Below are positions 52,589 to 60,575 of a stretch of 64,000 nt of DNA, one piece after another. How positions within the stretch are numbered: the stretch's first letter is position 1; each line of letters begins with the position of its first letter. The stretch spans positions 62,001-126,000 of the forward strand of contig VGOP01000004.1 of NCBI GenBank assembly GCA_016875875.1, in the 5' to 3' direction. Below the pieces are notes generated by a model that saw only the letters and a program-made list of their open reading frames with translations, did no database searches and was not told where the DNA came from. The position numbers and the translations under genes are program-made. Source of the stretch: Chloroflexota bacterium. Its GTDB lineage: Bacteria; Chloroflexota; Dehalococcoidia; GIF9; UBA5629.

Positions 52589-55303
52589 ATGGCTCAATAC
52601 AGACCGCTGTTGCTGCTTTTTGATGGGAATGCTCTAGTACATCGAGCTTTCCACGCCATCCCTCCCCTAACAATCTCGAGAACCGGGGAAATGGTCAATG
52701 CCGTTCAAGGCTTTGCCAGTACCTTACTTAAGGTGCTAAATGAAATCAAGCCAACTCACTGGGCTATTGCCTTCGACCGTCCCACACCAACCTTCAGACA
52801 CGAAAAATTCGAGGACTACAAAGCTCAACGCCCCAAAACCCCCGAAGAGCTGGTCAGTCAAATAAAGCGAGTGCACCAGCTAGTAGATACCTTCCATATT
52901 CCCACCTTCGAAATCGATGGCTACGAAGCTGATGACGTTCTGGGTACTCTGAGCCTCCAGGCTAGCCAGCAAAACGTAGACACCCTCATCGTTACCGGCG
53001 ACAACGACATGCTGCAGGTCGTCTCACCGAGCACAAAGGTAATGTCTCCAAGACGAAGCTTCAGCGATACAGTAATCTACGATGAGACTGGCGTCGAGCA
53101 GAAATACGGCATATCTTCCAGTCAACTCACCGACTTCAAAGCTCTCACCGGCGACCCTTCAGACAACATTCCTGGCATCCCCGGCATCGGCGACAAGACA
53201 GCAGTCAAGCTGCTGCGACAATTCAACAGCCTTGAGGGAATATACACGCATATCGACGAAATAACACCTGAGAAGCTACAGGCGTTGCTCCGCGACCATA
53301 AAGACCGGGTTCTTCAAAACAAGGAACTGGCGACAATAGTTACCGATGTCCCCATAATCTTGAATCTGAATGCTTGCCAGGTCAGCAGATACGACAGACA
53401 TCAGGTAGTCGAGCTTTTCCGCGAACTGGGATTCGCCCAATTGCTATCCAGGCTGCCCGAGGAGATAGAAGGGACACCAACTGTAGCTCCTGGCAAACCC
53501 ATATCCAAAAAGGACTACCACATAATTGACAGCGACCAAGCGCTAGATAAGCTTATCACCCAGCTGCTAGCCGCCAAAGAATTCACCGTTGATGTAGAGA
53601 CTTCCAGCAAAGAAGTCATGGCTGCTGAGCTCGTCGGCATCTCGCTGTCATCAAAGCCGGGTGAAGCCTACTACATACCGCTGGGGCACCGTGGGCTAAG
53701 CCACATATCCCAGCTACCATTGTCTCAAGTCATTGCCAGGCTTAAGCCGGTGCTTGAAGACACCAAAATCCCCAAAATAGCACAAAACGGCAAATTTGAT
53801 ATGACGGTGCTCGCCGAATATGGGATAAGGCTTGAGAATCTTAGCTTCGATACCATGATTGCCGCCTATCTGCTGGGTGAAAAGTCCATCGGGCTTAAAG
53901 CACTGGCTTTCAATAAACTGGGAGTTGAGATGACACCCATCACCGACTTAATTGGCAAAGGAGCCAAGCAGCTCTCTATGGCGATGGCAACAATAGAACA
54001 GGTTACCGACTATGCCTGTGCCGATGCCGATATTACTCTAAGGCTTAAAAGCGTGCTCGACGCTGAGCTGCGAAAAGAAGGACTATGGCAACTTTTCAGC
54101 GAAGTGGAGATGCCCTTGGTACCAGTGCTGGTAGACATGGAAAGAAATGGGGTGGCTATAGACGTTGAGCTGCTGCGAGATATGTCTCACAGCCTGGGAA
54201 AGGAGATGCTCAGACTGGAAGCCGAGGTTTACAACAGCCTTGGCTACAGGTTCAACATAAACTCGTCGCAACAGTTGTCCAGAATCCTGTATGAGGAGAT
54301 AAGGCTTCCCAAGCCGCGCAAAACAAAAAGCGGCTATTCTACCGAAGCCTCAGCGCTTGAGGAGCTAAAGGGAACTCATCCTATAATTGAGCTTGTCCTA
54401 CAATACCGCCAGCTGGCTAAATTGAAGTCAACCTACACCGATGCTTTCCCTGCCTTAGTCAACCCTAAAACAGGCCGGCTCCATACAAGTTTCAACCAGA
54501 CAGGCACAACTACCGGCCGTCTTTCCTCCAGCGAGCCGAACATGCAGAACATCCCCATAAGGAGCGAGCTGGGTGGAAGAATAAGGCAAGCCATCATCGC
54601 CCAGCCGGGGTGGTATCTTCTATCCGCCGATTACTCCCAAATCGACCTCAGGGCATTGGCCCACATTTCACAGGACCAGGAGCTTATCGCCACCTTCCTC
54701 AGAGACGAAGACGTCCATACCGCCACCGCTTCCCGCGTCTTTAATGTCCCAACAGACAAGGTGATACCTGAGATGCGCCGTGTGGCCAAAACAGTCAACT
54801 TCGGCGTTATCTACGGCATGAGCGACTACGGTCTGGAGCAAGCTACAAGTTTCAGTCGGGAGGAGGCTGCCCAGTTCATAAGCGCTTATTTCGAGAAATA
54901 TCCCAGGGTCAAAGAATATATCGAAGCCACCAAGAGCCAGGCCAGAGAACTGGGTTATGTGCAGACAGTGATGGGCAGGCGCCGTTATATTCCTGAAATC
55001 AAGTCGCCAAACCGTCAGGTCAGAGAAGCTGCTGAGCGAATGGCGATAAATATGCCAGTGCAGGGCACTTCGGCTGATATAATCAAAATCGCCATGGTCA
55101 ACCTTCACCGCGAGATGGAAAAACAGAACTTGCGAAGCAAAATGAACCTTCAAGTGCACGATGAACTCCTCTTTGAAGTGCCGCCAGAGGAAACAGACCT
55201 GATGAAAGAACTAGTAGCTGAAATAATGCCTCAAGCCTTAAAGCTCAGCGTGCCCTTGAAGATAGACATCAAACTAGGCAAAAACTGGGCCGAGATGGGA
55301 TAA
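52589..55303 (+). CDS. polA: DNA polymerase I
   Basis: 904 residues in three domains: 5'-nuclease (about 1-290, with YEADDVLGTL and TGDPSDNIPGI), a proofreading 3'-5' exonuclease (about 310-480) with intact DVETSS, NGKFDMTVL and YACADAD acidic residues, and the polymerase with DYSQIDLR (motif A), RRVAKTVNFGVIYG (motif B) and VHDELLFE (motif C). Retained exonuclease residues indicate active proofreading. No strong ribosome site precedes the ATG. mutM follows after one base. Confidence 0.97.
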   Translation: MAQYRPLLLLFDGNALVHRAFHAIPPLTISRTGEMVNAVQGFASTLLKVLNEIKPTHWAIAFDRPTPTFRHEKFEDYKAQRPKTPEELVSQIKRVHQLVDTFHIPTFEIDGYEADDVLGTLSLQASQQNVDTLIVTGDNDMLQVVSPSTKVMSPRRSFSDTVIYDETGVEQKYGISSSQLTDFKALTGDPSDNIPGIPGIGDKTAVKLLRQFNSLEGIYTHIDEITPEKLQALLRDHKDRVLQNKELATIVTDVPIILNLNACQVSRYDRHQVVELFRELGFAQLLSRLPEEIEGTPTVAPGKPISKKDYHIIDSDQALDKLITQLLAAKEFTVDVETSSKEVMAAELVGISLSSKPGEAYYIPLGHRGLSHISQLPLSQVIARLKPVLEDTKIPKIAQNGKFDMTVLAEYGIRLENLSFDTMIAAYLLGEKSIGLKALAFNKLGVEMTPITDLIGKGAKQLSMAMATIEQVTDYACADADITLRLKSVLDAELRKEGLWQLFSEVEMPLVPVLVDMERNGVAIDVELLRDMSHSLGKEMLRLEAEVYNSLGYRFNINSSQQLSRILYEEIRLPKPRKTKSGYSTEASALEELKGTHPIIELVLQYRQLAKLKSTYTDAFPALVNPKTGRLHTSFNQTGTTTGRLSSSEPNMQNIPIRSELGGRIRQAIIAQPGWYLLSADYSQIDLRALAHISQDQELIATFLRDEDVHTATASRVFNVPTDKVIPEMRRVAKTVNFGVIYGMSDYGLEQATSFSREEAAQFISAYFEKYPRVKEYIEATKSQARELGYVQTVMGRRRYIPEIKSPNRQVREAAERMAINMPVQGTSADIIKIAMVNLHREMEKQNLRSKMNLQVHDELLFEVPPEETDLMKELVAEIMPQALKLSVPLKIDIKLGKNWAEMG

Positions 55304-55304
55304 G

Positions 55305-56114
55305 GTGCCTGAACTTCCCGAAGTCGAAACCATAAAGAACGAACTCTCTCCCCACATAATCGGATGGCGATTCACCGGCGCTACCGTCTGCGACGCTAAG
55401 ATGGTGCGCCAGCCTTCAGTTGAAGAGTTTCGCCGCAAACTCGTGGGGCAAAGGATAAACGGCCTTGAGCGCCGCGGCAAATATCTCCTCTTCCGCCTGT
55501 TCAGCGACAACGTGCTGATTATCCACCTCAAAATGTCCGGGGCTCTGCTGCTAAATCCAGAACAAGCCGACCGCTATACCAGAGTCATCTTCGACCTTGA
55601 TAACGGCAACCGGCTCATCTTCACCGATCGAAGGCGGCTAGGAGCCATCTGGCTGGTAGAAAATGAACAGGCTGTTACCGGCAAGCTCGGCCCTGAGCCA
55701 CTAGCCCCAGAATTCACCGCCGAGAGTCTAGCCGAACGACTGCACAAACGCCAGGCGCCGATAAAAGCCGTACTCCTCGACCAAGCTTTTATCGCCGGCA
55801 TTGGCAACATGTATGCCGATGAAGCTCTGTTTGCTGCCAGAATCCACCCACTGCGGAAAGCAAATAGCCTGTCACCTCAAGAAATCAAAAAGCTACACAA
55901 AGCCATCGTTGACGTCCTGCGGTCAGCCATCGACAGCAAAGGTGCCAGCGTTGACACCTATAAACTTCCCGATGGCGAACTTGGCACTGCACATTCAAAC
56001 TTCTGCGTGGCTCATCGCGGCGGCAAGCCATGCCCTATCTGTGGCACGCCCATCCAGCGCCTTGCCATCAGAAACCGTGGCAGCTACTTCTGCCCCAATT
56101 GCCAAAAGCTCTAG
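55305..56114 (+). CDS. mutM: Formamidopyrimidine-DNA glycosylase
   Basis: Removes 8-oxoguanine and cuts the DNA strand. The 269 residues begin PELPEVETI (Pro2 nucleophile, Glu3), carry the H2TH motif near GNMYADEALFAARIHP, and end in a four-cysteine zinc finger (CVAHRGG, CPICG, then CPNCQKL; ligands in the last 35 residues). GTG 55305 starts almost on the polA stop, so expression is coupled to polA, combining two repair enzymes. Confidence 0.95.
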   Translation: MPELPEVETIKNELSPHIIGWRFTGATVCDAKMVRQPSVEEFRRKLVGQRINGLERRGKYLLFRLFSDNVLIIHLKMSGALLLNPEQADRYTRVIFDLDNGNRLIFTDRRRLGAIWLVENEQAVTGKLGPEPLAPEFTAESLAERLHKRQAPIKAVLLDQAFIAGIGNMYADEALFAARIHPLRKANSLSPQEIKKLHKAIVDVLRSAIDSKGASVDTYKLPDGELGTAHSNFCVAHRGGKPCPICGTPIQRLAIRNRGSYFCPNCQKL

Positions 56115-56188: not shown

Positions 56189-56225
56189 CCGTCTTATTAT
56201 TAACCGAACTCAAAAGGAGGTAAAT

Positions 56226-58625
56226 GTGAGAAAAGCGATTTTTATTTTCTTCGGTTTACTGCTTGCAGTGTCGATGTTCTCCTTCCCAGCAGACACGATA
56301 AGCGCCCAGACAATCACCACGCCACAGTTATCGTCATCTTCCCCAGCCGCTATGCAAGCAGGCGAAAAGGAATTAATAGATGACATTCTCAGAGAGCTTG
56401 ACCAGGCCCGGAAATTAACCAACGATAGTAATATTCAGGGCCAGATAGGTGTCATCAAAGAATGGGTCAAAAAGCTTCAGGCACTTATAGAGCGGGGTGA
56501 CACGAAGGCAGCTCTTGAAATCAAATATACAATAGCCAGGCGGCTGGAGTGGCTAATAAACCAATTGCCAACTGTTACGCCCGGTACAACTACCGCCGTC
56601 GCAGCTGTGCCAGCACCAAACCCTCTATATGATGAGCTGGTCAGAATTCGAGCCAAAATTGATAAGCTCATAGCGCTGGAAGAGCGAGAAATGCCAACCA
56701 TAACGCCATGGGAACCACCTGAAATCCAGCGCCCGCCGGAGATGGAAAAGCTGATTGTCTACTCAGCCAAGTTCCTCTGTGGGCCCGCCTTAGGTGGGGA
56801 AGGCGTTCAGTCCGGCTCATATTCCACAGCCATTAACGTACATAACCCGAATAACGACACCGTCTATGTGTTCAAGAAAGCTGTTATTGCCCAGCGAGAG
56901 GATGAAGCCAGAGGCAGAATCTCTGCTTTTCGAAAAGTCGCGCTAGGACCTGACGAGGCCATAGAGATTGACTGCATCGACATAGTCAGATTCTTTGGGG
57001 CTCAACAAGAAACTGGAGTAACTGCCCCCTCTCAGCAAACACAGACCTTGCTACAAACCACAAATGTTACGCCAATAAGTTCTGTGGTTAGGTTCATCAA
57101 AGGCTTCGTCGTCATCTACGCCACAGCGCCTTTGGATGTAGTCGGCGTTTATACTGGCAGCACACCCAATGGCTTCAGCCTTGATGTCGAACAAATTCCT
57201 CGCAGTACCATGGGAGTCCCTGTGCGCGTTCCAGAAGAACCTGAAGAAGAAGCCGAATGTCCCGCAGGATGTTACTGTATGACCAAGGACGAGGCCCTTG
57301 GTAAATTAGGGGCCAACGCTACTCTGTGCCAGGATGCACCATGCGATAAGGACGCCAGAGGAGTCCTCAGATATTGCTGGAAAGCCGGCGAGGAGGTTAA
57401 ATGCCCCGGGGGCTGCGTCTGCCTGACCAAGGATGATGCCTATAAGAGGTACGGACAAAACGCTACCCTCTGCCAAGATGCGCCATGCGATAAGGACGCC
57501 AGTGGAAACCCTCTATACTGCTGGAAACCGCCGGCCCAGGCTACCTGTCCGCAGGGATGCGTCTGCTTGACCAAGGATGACGCCTATAAACGATATGGAC
57601 AAAACGCTACCCTTTGCCAGGACGCGCCATGCGATAAGGATGCCAGTGGAAACCTCCTATATTGCTGGAAACCACCGGCCGAGGTTACCTGTCCGCAGGG
57701 ATGCTACTGTCTGACCAAAGCCGATGCCGACGGTCGGGGCTACACCACCCTGTGTCAGGACCAACCATGTGGATATGTCACCAGCGCCACAACTGCCACT
57801 ACAACTGCCGCCACAACCGCTGTGCAAACCCCTAAATATTGCTACAAACCGCCGGCTCAGGTTACCTGCCCCCAGGGATGCTATTGTCTAACCAAAGACG
57901 AGGCATACGCCAAATTGGGGGCCAACGCCACCATGTGTCAGGAACAGCCATGCGAATATGTTGCAGGTGCCACAGGTGCTGCGCAAATCGTGAGATATTG
58001 CTGGAAACCGCCGGCCGAGGTTACCTGCCCCCAAGGATGCTACTGTCTGACCAAAGCCGATGCCGACGGTCGGGGCTACACCACTCTCTGCCAGGACCAG
58101 CCGTGTGGGTATGTTGCAGGTGCGACAACAGCTATGCAAACCCCGAAATATTGCTACAAACCACCAGCTCAGGTCACCTGCCCACAGGGCTGCGTATGTG
58201 CCACCTTCGATGAGGCTAAGCAATACGGCTACGTTTACTGCCAGAACCAACAGATACAATGCGGCACCGGTAAGTATTGCTTCCAACGGGCAGTCACAGA
58301 GGTCAAACCCACACCAGCCAGAATACTAATTGACCCCGCTCAGGCTAGAAACGTTGTGGGTTCTCAGCATACCATCACGGTTGTTGTCTACGACACTAAC
58401 GGCAAGCCAATGGCGAACGTAAGGGTAAAAATCAGCCACACTGGTGCTAATAGCTTCGCCCCGATCGAGCTCACGACTGACGGCAATGGCAAGGCTAGCT
58501 ATAACTACACCGGCAAAAACACCGGCACCGATACCATCGTGGCTACTGTTGACAGTCTGTCAGCCAAAGCCACCAAGGAATGGTATAGACTGCCAACAAT
58601 AACCGTACCACCGACCCTCAAATGA
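56226..58625 (+). CDS. Secreted protein with seven six-cysteine repeats and Ig-like domain
   Basis: 799 residues. A signal peptide (about 1-28: basic start, hydrophobic core, then ISAQ), a helical Glu/Lys-rich segment (40-120), a beta-rich domain with INVHNPNNDTVYVFKKAV (200-320), seven tandem repeats (345-690; pattern CPxGCxC, then LCQ, PC and YC, six Cys each, separated by KPPA-type linkers), and a C-terminal Big-1-like domain (DPAQARNVVGSQHTITVVV to 795). GTG 56226 has AAAAGGAGGT upstream. No anchor motif is seen at the C-terminus, so it is exported or loosely attached. No family name for the repeats is known to me. Confidence 0.8.
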   Translation: MRKAIFIFFGLLLAVSMFSFPADTISAQTITTPQLSSSSPAAMQAGEKELIDDILRELDQARKLTNDSNIQGQIGVIKEWVKKLQALIERGDTKAALEIKYTIARRLEWLINQLPTVTPGTTTAVAAVPAPNPLYDELVRIRAKIDKLIALEEREMPTITPWEPPEIQRPPEMEKLIVYSAKFLCGPALGGEGVQSGSYSTAINVHNPNNDTVYVFKKAVIAQREDEARGRISAFRKVALGPDEAIEIDCIDIVRFFGAQQETGVTAPSQQTQTLLQTTNVTPISSVVRFIKGFVVIYATAPLDVVGVYTGSTPNGFSLDVEQIPRSTMGVPVRVPEEPEEEAECPAGCYCMTKDEALGKLGANATLCQDAPCDKDARGVLRYCWKAGEEVKCPGGCVCLTKDDAYKRYGQNATLCQDAPCDKDASGNPLYCWKPPAQATCPQGCVCLTKDDAYKRYGQNATLCQDAPCDKDASGNLLYCWKPPAEVTCPQGCYCLTKADADGRGYTTLCQDQPCGYVTSATTATTTAATTAVQTPKYCYKPPAQVTCPQGCYCLTKDEAYAKLGANATMCQEQPCEYVAGATGAAQIVRYCWKPPAEVTCPQGCYCLTKADADGRGYTTLCQDQPCGYVAGATTAMQTPKYCYKPPAQVTCPQGCVCATFDEAKQYGYVYCQNQQIQCGTGKYCFQRAVTEVKPTPARILIDPAQARNVVGSQHTITVVVYDTNGKPMANVRVKISHTGANSFAPIELTTDGNGKASYNYTGKNTGTDTIVATVDSLSAKATKEWYRLPTITVPPTLK
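57258..58290 (+). repeat. Seven tandem coding repeats (six Cys per unit)
   Basis: Units begin at CPAGCYC, CPGGCVC, CPQGCVC, CPQGCYC, CPQGCYC, CPQGCYC, CPQGCVC. The second and third units, and the fourth and sixth, are almost identical in DNA, showing recent duplication; the last is the most diverged. Two units carry Thr/Ala-rich inserts (ATTATTTAATT type) of unequal length, a sign of slippage. Confidence 0.85.
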
Positions 58626-58634
58626 AGCCCAAGC

Positions 58635-58669
58635 AGAGCTGGGGAGTTTTCTATGAGCTCCCCAGCTCT
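58635..58669. terminator. Hairpin between convergent genes
   Basis: AGAGCTGGGGAG (58635-58646) and CTCCCCAGCTCT (58658-58669) form a perfect 12 bp stem with an 11-base loop, 9 bases past the secreted-protein stop and 10 before the gltX stop. No strong T-tract on either side; probably a bidirectional terminator. Confidence 0.65.
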
Positions 58670-58678
58670 CACCTAAAT

Positions 58679-60124
58679 TCAAGAAGTCGAAAGCTTATCC
58701 AAAGCTGCTCTCAGCCGCTTAAGGCACAGCTCCCTACCCAGCACCTCCATGGTCTGAAACAAAGGCGGAGCTGCCGTTCTTCCCGTAACTGCTACACGCA
58801 GCAGGCCAAAGAATACGCTGGTCTTCAATTCACGCTCCTCAGCCAATGGCCGGAAAACAGCCTCTAGTGAAGCTGCGTCCCAATTCTTCAAATTATCCAT
58901 CTCGGCAACCGAAGCCTGGAGACTTTTAATCGCTTCAGCCTTCTCAATTTTACCCAAGAGCAGCCCTATATCATATTCCACTTCATCCGCAAAGAAAAAA
59001 TCGCTGAGCTGTGGCACTTCAGCCAGAGTTTTAGCTCTCTCTTGGACAAGAGGCACAATCTGACGGATATAGCCAATGTCGAATGGACGATTGATTTCCG
59101 CTGGCAAGTCCCTTTCCAAAAAAGGGGTAGCTCGCTGGGCAAATCTTTCTGCACTCAAACCCCGGAGATAAACCCCATTCATCCAATCGAGCTTATCTTT
59201 GTTAAACACGGCTGCAGTCCGGCTTATCCGCTCCAGCGAGAAATGCTTCACTATCTCTTCTCGTGTCAAAAGCTCCGTCTTATCATCCAACGACCAGCCA
59301 AGCAGAACTAGAAAGTTAAACATCGCTTCGGGCAAATAGCCCTGCTCTCGATATTCAGTGATGGCTGTAGCACCATGCCGCTTACTTAGCTTCGACCTAT
59401 CTGTCCCCAGAATCATAGGTAAATGGGCAAACTGAGGTGGCTGCCAACGCAGCGCCAGGTAAAGCAGAACATGACGAGGTGTGCTCGATAGCCACTCATC
59501 AGCTCTGAGAATATGGGAAATCTCCATAACATGGTCATCAACTATGTTGGCCAGATGATACGTAGGATAACCATCAGATTTAAGGAGAACGAAATCGTCC
59601 AAGGTGCTGTTTTCAAAGACTATCTGGCCACGAAGCAAATCATTGAAAGAGGTCTGGCCATCAAGGGATGACTTGAAACGCACCACAGGTATAATCCCGC
59701 TCGCCTCCATCTCAATCTTCTGTTTTTGTGTGAGGTTGCGACAGTGACGGTCATAGCCGGGTGGCTGCTTCCGCTTTATCTGCTCCTGACGCATTGACTC
59801 CAGCCGTTGGGGAGAACAGTAGCAATGGTAAGCAGACTCCTGCTTCAGCAACCTATCAGCCACCTCGCGGTAAAGCTCCAGCCGTTGTGATTGGAAATAG
59901 GGACCTTCATCCCAATCAAGCCCGAGCCAGCGCAGACTCTCCAAAATAATATCTGTAGCTCCATCCACTAGACGAGCCACATCGGTGTCCTCAATACGCA
60001 GAATAAAAAGGCCATTATTGTGACGGGCGAATAGCCAATTAAATAGAGCGGTCCTGATATTGCCAAGATGAGGATAGCCTGTTGGGCTTGGAGCGAAGCG
60101 AACACGCACCATAGTTTCAGACAT
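58679..60124 (-). CDS. gltX: Glutamyl-tRNA synthetase
   Basis: Class I synthetase, about 481 residues from ATG 60124. It has the HIGH-type motif APSPTGYPHLGN, and SKLSKRHG for KMSKS, plus the helical anticodon-binding C-terminus. Whether it also charges tRNA-Gln cannot be told from sequence. The start at 60124 overlaps the RDD gene end by 8 bases; ATG 60112 is another choice. The longer ATG 60145 would add seven poorly conserved residues. Confidence 0.95.
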   Translation of the reverse strand: MSETMVRVRFAPSPTGYPHLGNIRTALFNWLFARHNNGLFILRIEDTDVARLVDGATDIILESLRWLGLDWDEGPYFQSQRLELYREVADRLLKQESAYHCYCSPQRLESMRQEQIKRKQPPGYDRHCRNLTQKQKIEMEASGIIPVVRFKSSLDGQTSFNDLLRGQIVFENSTLDDFVLLKSDGYPTYHLANIVDDHVMEISHILRADEWLSSTPRHVLLYLALRWQPPQFAHLPMILGTDRSKLSKRHGATAITEYREQGYLPEAMFNFLVLLGWSLDDKTELLTREEIVKHFSLERISRTAAVFNKDKLDWMNGVYLRGLSAERFAQRATPFLERDLPAEINRPFDIGYIRQIVPLVQERAKTLAEVPQLSDFFFADEVEYDIGLLLGKIEKAEAIKSLQASVAEMDNLKNWDAASLEAVFRPLAEERELKTSVFFGLLRVAVTGRTAAPPLFQTMEVLGRELCLKRLRAALDKLSTS

Positions 60125-60575
60125 AGCTAGCCTGGCCCCGCGCATAAGGCCCCGTGAAAGACACCTGCCTTACCGGCAGTTTCACCACGTAGGTATCAGC
60201 AATCTTATCATGTATACCTTGCTTGCGGGCATCAAAGGCAACCCAGATAAAACCTACAAACAGAGTTACCACCGAGACAATGTATCCCAAGAAACGATAC
60301 AGCGCGCATTGTAATTTAACCGGAGAGCTGTCAGTCCGAATAACCTTTATCCCCACAGCCATCTTCCCCAGCGTCTGTCCCCGCCATACCCAAAAACCCA
60401 ACCAATAAGCAACCGATATTACTAGGCCGCTTGGCACCCAGATTACCGGAGAGGCAAAAACGCAGACAATAACGGCAACAATAAACCCTAAGACCAAAAG
60501 GTCAATAACACCTGCCCCGAGCCTAACCCAGAAACCAGCATACTCTAAGGCAAACTCTTTTGGCTTCTTCTCCAA
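60117..60575 (-). CDS. RDD-family membrane protein
   Basis: 152 residues, three membrane helices. Typical segments are EYAGFWVRLGAGVIDLLVLGF (Arg and Asp of the RDD signature), GQTLGKMAVGIKVI and DARKQGIHDKIADT (second Asp). Function of the family is mostly unknown, possibly transport. Its stop overlaps gltX start, so the two are co-transcribed. Confidence 0.88.
   Translation of the reverse strand: MEKKPKEFALEYAGFWVRLGAGVIDLLVLGFIVAVIVCVFASPVIWVPSGLVISVAYWLGFWVWRGQTLGKMAVGIKVIRTDSSPVKLQCALYRFLGYIVSVVTLFVGFIWVAFDARKQGIHDKIADTYVVKLPVRQVSFTGPYARGQASYV

Follow-up and report, generated by a model that had tools for sequence, protein, structure and literature searches.

In an anaerobic bacterium of Dehalococcoidia type, the gene at 56226-58625 of the window (the whole stretch of DNA analysed, 64,000 nucleotides) encodes a protein carrying seven tandem units of six cysteines each, and this unit appears to be an uncatalogued extracellular module, spread widely but patchily among anaerobic archaea and bacteria. 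We read the protein as an exported stalk of beads with an Ig-like tip, probably used for binding, and put the probability of this whole reading at about 0.5. A preliminary description of this DNA had noticed the cysteine repeats, the export and the Ig-like C-terminus, and it overlooked both the archaeal spread of the unit and the orthologous, syntenic status of the gene in its lineage. From N- to C-terminus the protein is composed of a signal-like segment, helices (about 45-155), a middle domain (169-330), the seven units (345-694) and, last, a Big_1 domain (713-781), with the following coordinates:

56214..56220, + strand: ribosome-binding site AAGGAGG, 5 bases 5' of the GTG start, read directly
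56226..58625, + strand: whole gene, 799 aa; open reading frame call, orthologues at the matching place in six relatives
56226..56306, + strand: probable Sec signal peptide, residues 1-27, with cleavage placed after ISA; positive n-region, hydrophobic core and A-x-A-like end, from hydropathy
56358..56690, + strand: N-terminal helical region, residues 45-155, four helices in the AlphaFold model of residues 28-344
56730..57215, + strand: middle domain, residues 169-330, mainly beta, invariant Cys 185 and Cys 250; alignments A2 and A6 and a low-confidence model
57258..57401, + strand: unit 1 with linker
57402..57545, + strand: unit 2 with linker; folded in tandem with unit 3
57546..57689, + strand: unit 3 with linker; 92% amino acid and 85% nucleotide identity to unit 2
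57690..57866, + strand: unit 4, with a Thr/Ala insert between C5 and C6
57867..58025, + strand: unit 5
58026..58178, + strand: unit 6; 94% amino acid and 86% nucleotide identity to unit 4
58179..58307, + strand: unit 7, a shorter last type (6 residues from C4 to C5) that most resembles the last units of relatives
58362..58568, + strand: Big_1 Ig-like domain, residues 713-781; Pfam PF02369 above cut-off
58635..58669, no strand assigned: 15-bp hairpin in the gap where this gene and the convergent gltX end, from folding

The CPxGCxC units start at residues 345, 393, 441, 489, 548, 601 and 652, are joined by short proline-rich linkers and follow the spacing C-x3-C-x-C-x(about 13-16)-C-x(4 or 6)-C-x(about 5-24)-C, and each of the seven has the six cysteines first noted. 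Such an array cannot have arisen by chance, because CxxGCxC occurs seven times in the protein and never more than once in any of 20,000 residue shuffles. The unit had been called a family not recognised, and it is equally absent from the libraries: the Pfam, NCBIfam and PHROG profiles gave no family, a profile search of the PDB gave no relative, and EGF-like, TIL, antistasin and other six-cysteine Pfam families gave no match (E up to 10 for four window units and up to 5 for 36 units). LRRNT (PF01462) was rejected as the identity of the unit, its matches (best E 0.013, in 2 of the 36 units) lying below the 25.8-bit cut-off and its match to unit 7 being partial (13.8 bits, residues 1-23 only). 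No description of the unit was found by literature search, in which coverage of subscription papers was poor. EGF-like domains, taken for comparison and not as relatives, are also modules of about 40 residues set in tandem by short linkers in exported proteins, with the three disulphides expected in the window unit too; however, their cysteine spacing differs and the Pfam models of such families do not match.

Prediction of the structure of units 2 and 3 in tandem (AlphaFold, from an alignment of 44 tandems) gave a mean pLDDT of 91.8 and a pTM of 0.55, with each modelled unit consisting of a strand, a helix and a long strand, an E-H-E mini-domain of the small alpha/beta kind. Independent, bead-like folding of the units is well supported by this model, and the pTM suggests that the beads are flexibly joined, with uncertain relative placement. 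Comparison of the unit fold with the PDB, in which small domains are easily missed, returned nothing from Foldseek at an E below 3, and in a second look no structure reached a Z of 2.

The N-terminus (MRKAIFIFFGLLLAVSMFSFPADTISA, with Q after the predicted cleavage site) is laid out like a Sec signal peptide. Its hydropathy reaches 2.2 over 19 residues and no comparable second segment exists anywhere in the protein, and export, as proposed earlier, is highly probable on these features. Since no membrane or wall anchor is present, neither PGF-CTERM nor lipobox, the protein may be freely secreted. At the other end, the suspected Big-1-like domain was confirmed by Pfam Big_1 (PF02369) on the C-terminal 69 residues (E 9.8e-10; 38.9 bits against a cut-off of 34.9), which is the only above-threshold domain of the whole protein and has no second example elsewhere in its own genome. 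This Ig-like domain is known from surface proteins of bacteria. Intimin and invasin begin with an N-terminal beta-barrel and have further parts beside Big_1, whereas the window protein begins with helices and is matched by Pfam only in its Ig-like C-terminus; it has a single Big_1 ending a cysteine-rich array, with no intimin or invasin barrel and no lectin domain.

Between signal and units lie two conserved regions that the preliminary description did not mention. In the AlphaFold model of residues 28-344, helices occupy model positions 18-36, 41-63, 66-86 and 106-128, the first three with pLDDT of about 70-92. The middle domain behind them carries the motif TA[IV]N[VI]HN, invariant in alignment A6. 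In structure comparison its model, itself of low pLDDT, resembled TM1070 (1nc7; Z 8.8 over 102 residues, rmsd 2.9) and, again from the low-confidence model, ASRT (2ii8; Z 7.3-7.8). Their superfamily, ASRAH (Anabaena sensory rhodopsin transducer), is an eight-stranded beta-sandwich that has been proposed to bind sugars and whose first strand opens with a conserved Trp (PMC2739507). We did not adopt membership, as the structural hint has no profile-profile support; Pfam ASRT has no match in the genome of the window protein, and the first-strand Trp is absent from alignment A6. The invariant Asn followed by HN may correspond to the near-invariant Asn that closes strand 2 in ASRAH, in a putative register. 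The same middle domain (YSxKFxCG...TAxNxHN...), for which Pfam has no family, also recurs in other exported proteins of Chloroflexota (L092, L093, L097), on their C-terminal side, some of these proteins with beta-propeller-like repeats, for example NHL-like repeats before the middle domain.

The gene, present in one copy in its own genome and indeed among the longest of the window (fourth longest ORF), lies between mutM upstream (55305-56114) and the convergent gltX downstream (58679-60145). The region 58610-58700 has a fold energy of -35.1 kcal/mol (z -6.4), and the hairpin within it is probably a terminator common to the six-cysteine gene and gltX; a promoter and terminator scan gave nothing beyond chance level, and the terminator is proposed from the fold energy. 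On the far side of mutM, polA and mutM abut in the window (55303-55305), and about 4 kb of extra genes separate them in relatives G001 and G002 (L139:948-4965; L142:7259-11258), encoding a large helicase-like protein of 993 aa, an ATPase-like protein of 596 aa and a TPR protein. This interval is a variable island.

Protein matches were found in 11 of the 30 genomes of the family, some of them through the Big_1 part only. In six relatives (G001, G002, G003, G011, G026, G027) the gene adjoins gltX, and in the five with the other side covered it adjoins mutM as well; because this position is kept, the six copies are orthologues in a fixed chromosomal place. Comparison of repeat number, which the preliminary description had proposed across strains, gave 3 units in G011, 6 in G001, G002 and G003, 7 in the window and G026, and 8 in G027, and the N-terminal, middle and last-unit parts are retained. 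Outside the gltX/mutM neighbourhood, G022 holds a short homologue made of unit, Big_1 and unit with the lipobox VSAGC (L009). A genome of a neighbouring family in the same order, G446, encodes a protein of 46% identity over 712 alignment columns, with matching N-terminus and middle domain, seven somewhat different units and no Big_1. Among the relatives, two (L007 and L042) lack Big_1, and the tip domain therefore appears dispensable for this type of protein.

The near-identical units had been taken as a sign of active expansion, and it is here that the preliminary description failed. Despite amino acid identities of 92% (units 2/3) and 94% (units 4/6), DNA identity is only 85-86%, and of the residues that the pairs share, only 29 of 43 and 32 of 48, respectively, have the same codon. 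dS is 1.11 for units 2/3 and 0.85 for units 4/6, with dN of 0.03 (estimates from short units of 44-47 codons), and dS between the nearer species is 0.64-0.94 in the middle domain. Because synonymous divergence within the pairs matches that between species and dN is so low, the pairs are best read as old duplications under purifying selection, and recent expansion is rejected with the caveat of the short units. The first and last units have their nearest relatives at the matching position in other species; inner units have been reshuffled.

Profile searches with the repeats, also suggested at the outset, found no known domain and led to related units in archaea. A profile of 36 units matched in 16 of the 84 genomes of the order and, among 400 genomes spread over the phylum, only in the window genome. 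Scanning 84,980 species genomes with a DNA pattern that demands TGC for the first cysteine, and thus undercounts, gave 26 stretches, mostly from Methanothrix, Methanoregula, Methanoculleus and relatives, ANME-1, Altiarchaeales, two Deltaproteobacteria and Dehalococcoidia; two (Arthrobacter L063 and Bacteroidetes L069) had no unit-bearing ORF and were taken as chance. With a broader profile of 45 units, units were found in 17 of 295 genomes of the phylum around Methanothrix (at least four of them already found by the pattern scan), up to 19 per genome, and among 395 Desulfobacterota genomes in the seed genome only. Viral contigs and phage records gave no match to the units, and a phage or virus origin was rejected on this and on the conserved chromosomal neighbourhood of the gene.

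The archaeal units match by profile with E down to 5.8e-19 and form arrays of 1 to more than 10; genome G994 has 19 units, and a single gene there (L163, G994:C57) carries more than ten. A culturable Methanothrix encodes a protein with four. Archaeal unit proteins (Methanothrix, Methanoregula, ANME-1, Altiarchaeales) share the unit with the window protein but have partners of their own, namely PGF-CTERM, CARDB-like repeats, FG-GAP or a second cysteine module, and no middle domain was seen in them. The second module, CxYDxxxxxCxGxC...LNTxYRDPxTGKVxYAECxCK, stands downstream of the units in L079, L073, L151 and L168, among Methanothrix, Methanoregula-like and other archaeal proteins. The C-terminal PGF-CTERM signal of L062 and L080, together with the lipobox of the G022 homologue, would place such proteins at the surface. 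A long conserved region beside the units, with no Pfam match, is common to L043 and L044 of Dehalococcoidia and L084 of Altiarchaeales, and L044 and L084 share units and this region at 36% identity over 683 columns. From these three proteins, transfer between bacteria and archaea seems likely. In a broader proposal, tentative and on the unlikely side, the unit would define an undescribed family of disulphide-stapled mini-domains common to Dehalococcoidia and anaerobic archaea (methanogens, ANME-1, Altiarchaeales), which would have moved between the two domains of life and would serve as an all-purpose binding bead on surfaces within anaerobic consortia.

For the window protein itself, we propose that the helical bundle and the beta domain would form the cell-proximal part, that the seven modules, each with three disulphides and joined by short proline-rich linkers, would make a protease-resistant, flexible stalk of adjustable length, and that the Big_1 domain would cap it. 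As a surface or matrix protein it could hold a binding surface off the cell, with the repeated modules giving avidity. The stalk geometry, the spatial order of the domains and a role in binding or adhesion are what we infer from this layout, and that role, considered by itself, falls slightly short of an even chance. A purely structural envelope protein, such as a spacer, a cross-linked sheath or an S-layer-associated element without specific ligand, would explain why repeat number varies freely among orthologues and why the linkers are rich in proline, and in ANME-1-type archaea a beta-rich region and a PGF-CTERM signal come after the units, as in S-layer-type proteins. However, dN of 0.03 at dS of about 1 reflects stronger constraint than a mere spacer would be expected to need, and the genome has only one copy of the gene; we consider this alternative rather unlikely.

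Cysteine losses bear on how the cysteines of the unit are paired. When the distinct units of all loci are pooled, 181 out of 198 retain all six cysteines. C2 and C4 are jointly absent in nine, of which six are plain (two being near-identical homologues), one has C1 shifted, one has C4 in a gap and one is cut at the ORF end; C4 alone is lost in one unit, C1 in one and C2 alone in none. One absence of C5 is only apparent, owing to an insertion, and at C6 five units are truncated or misaligned. By sequence, the units with joint losses form about three types (CPxxWxC, CPxGTxC and CPxGYKC), which points to few independent events, all at one cysteine pair. A C2-C4 disulphide is well supported, because the two vanish together while the other four cysteines stay, and we regard the units as very probably disulphide-stapled beads. 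In full-length orthologues the cysteine total is 6n+2, with one exception carrying an extra cysteine, and the two beyond 6n correspond to the invariant cysteines in the middle domain. Reduced cysteines binding metal (Zn, Fe-S or Cu), for metal capture or extracellular electron transfer, would suit a repeat region of 12% cysteine, relatives that are anaerobic and an own genome (96.75% complete) in which VKOR and DsbA-like Thioredoxin_4 genes, the only two looked for, were not found. Against this, the joint loss of C2 and C4 in at least three sequence types is the signature of a disulphide and disfavours a site needing all six cysteines, and the consensus has no CxxC or CxxCH heme motif, so that metal binding is improbable. 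More improbable still are tandem inhibitor or defence modules (protease-inhibitor-like disulphide mini-proteins), since the resemblance to many eukaryotic inhibitor arrays in size, six cysteines and tandem order is accompanied by no fold match, and the best PDB profile match, a tick complement inhibitor, is not significant (E 0.84, 12 residues only) and was gone with the broader profile.

If the protein is an exported, disulphide-stapled stalk, the failure to find VKOR and DsbA-like genes in this genome raises the question of how such anaerobes make disulphides outside the cell. The unit has a testable disulphide pattern and occurs in archaea and bacteria of anoxic habitats, and a description of it would allow many large surface proteins now labelled 'hypothetical' in methanogens, ANME-1 and Altiarchaeales to be named.
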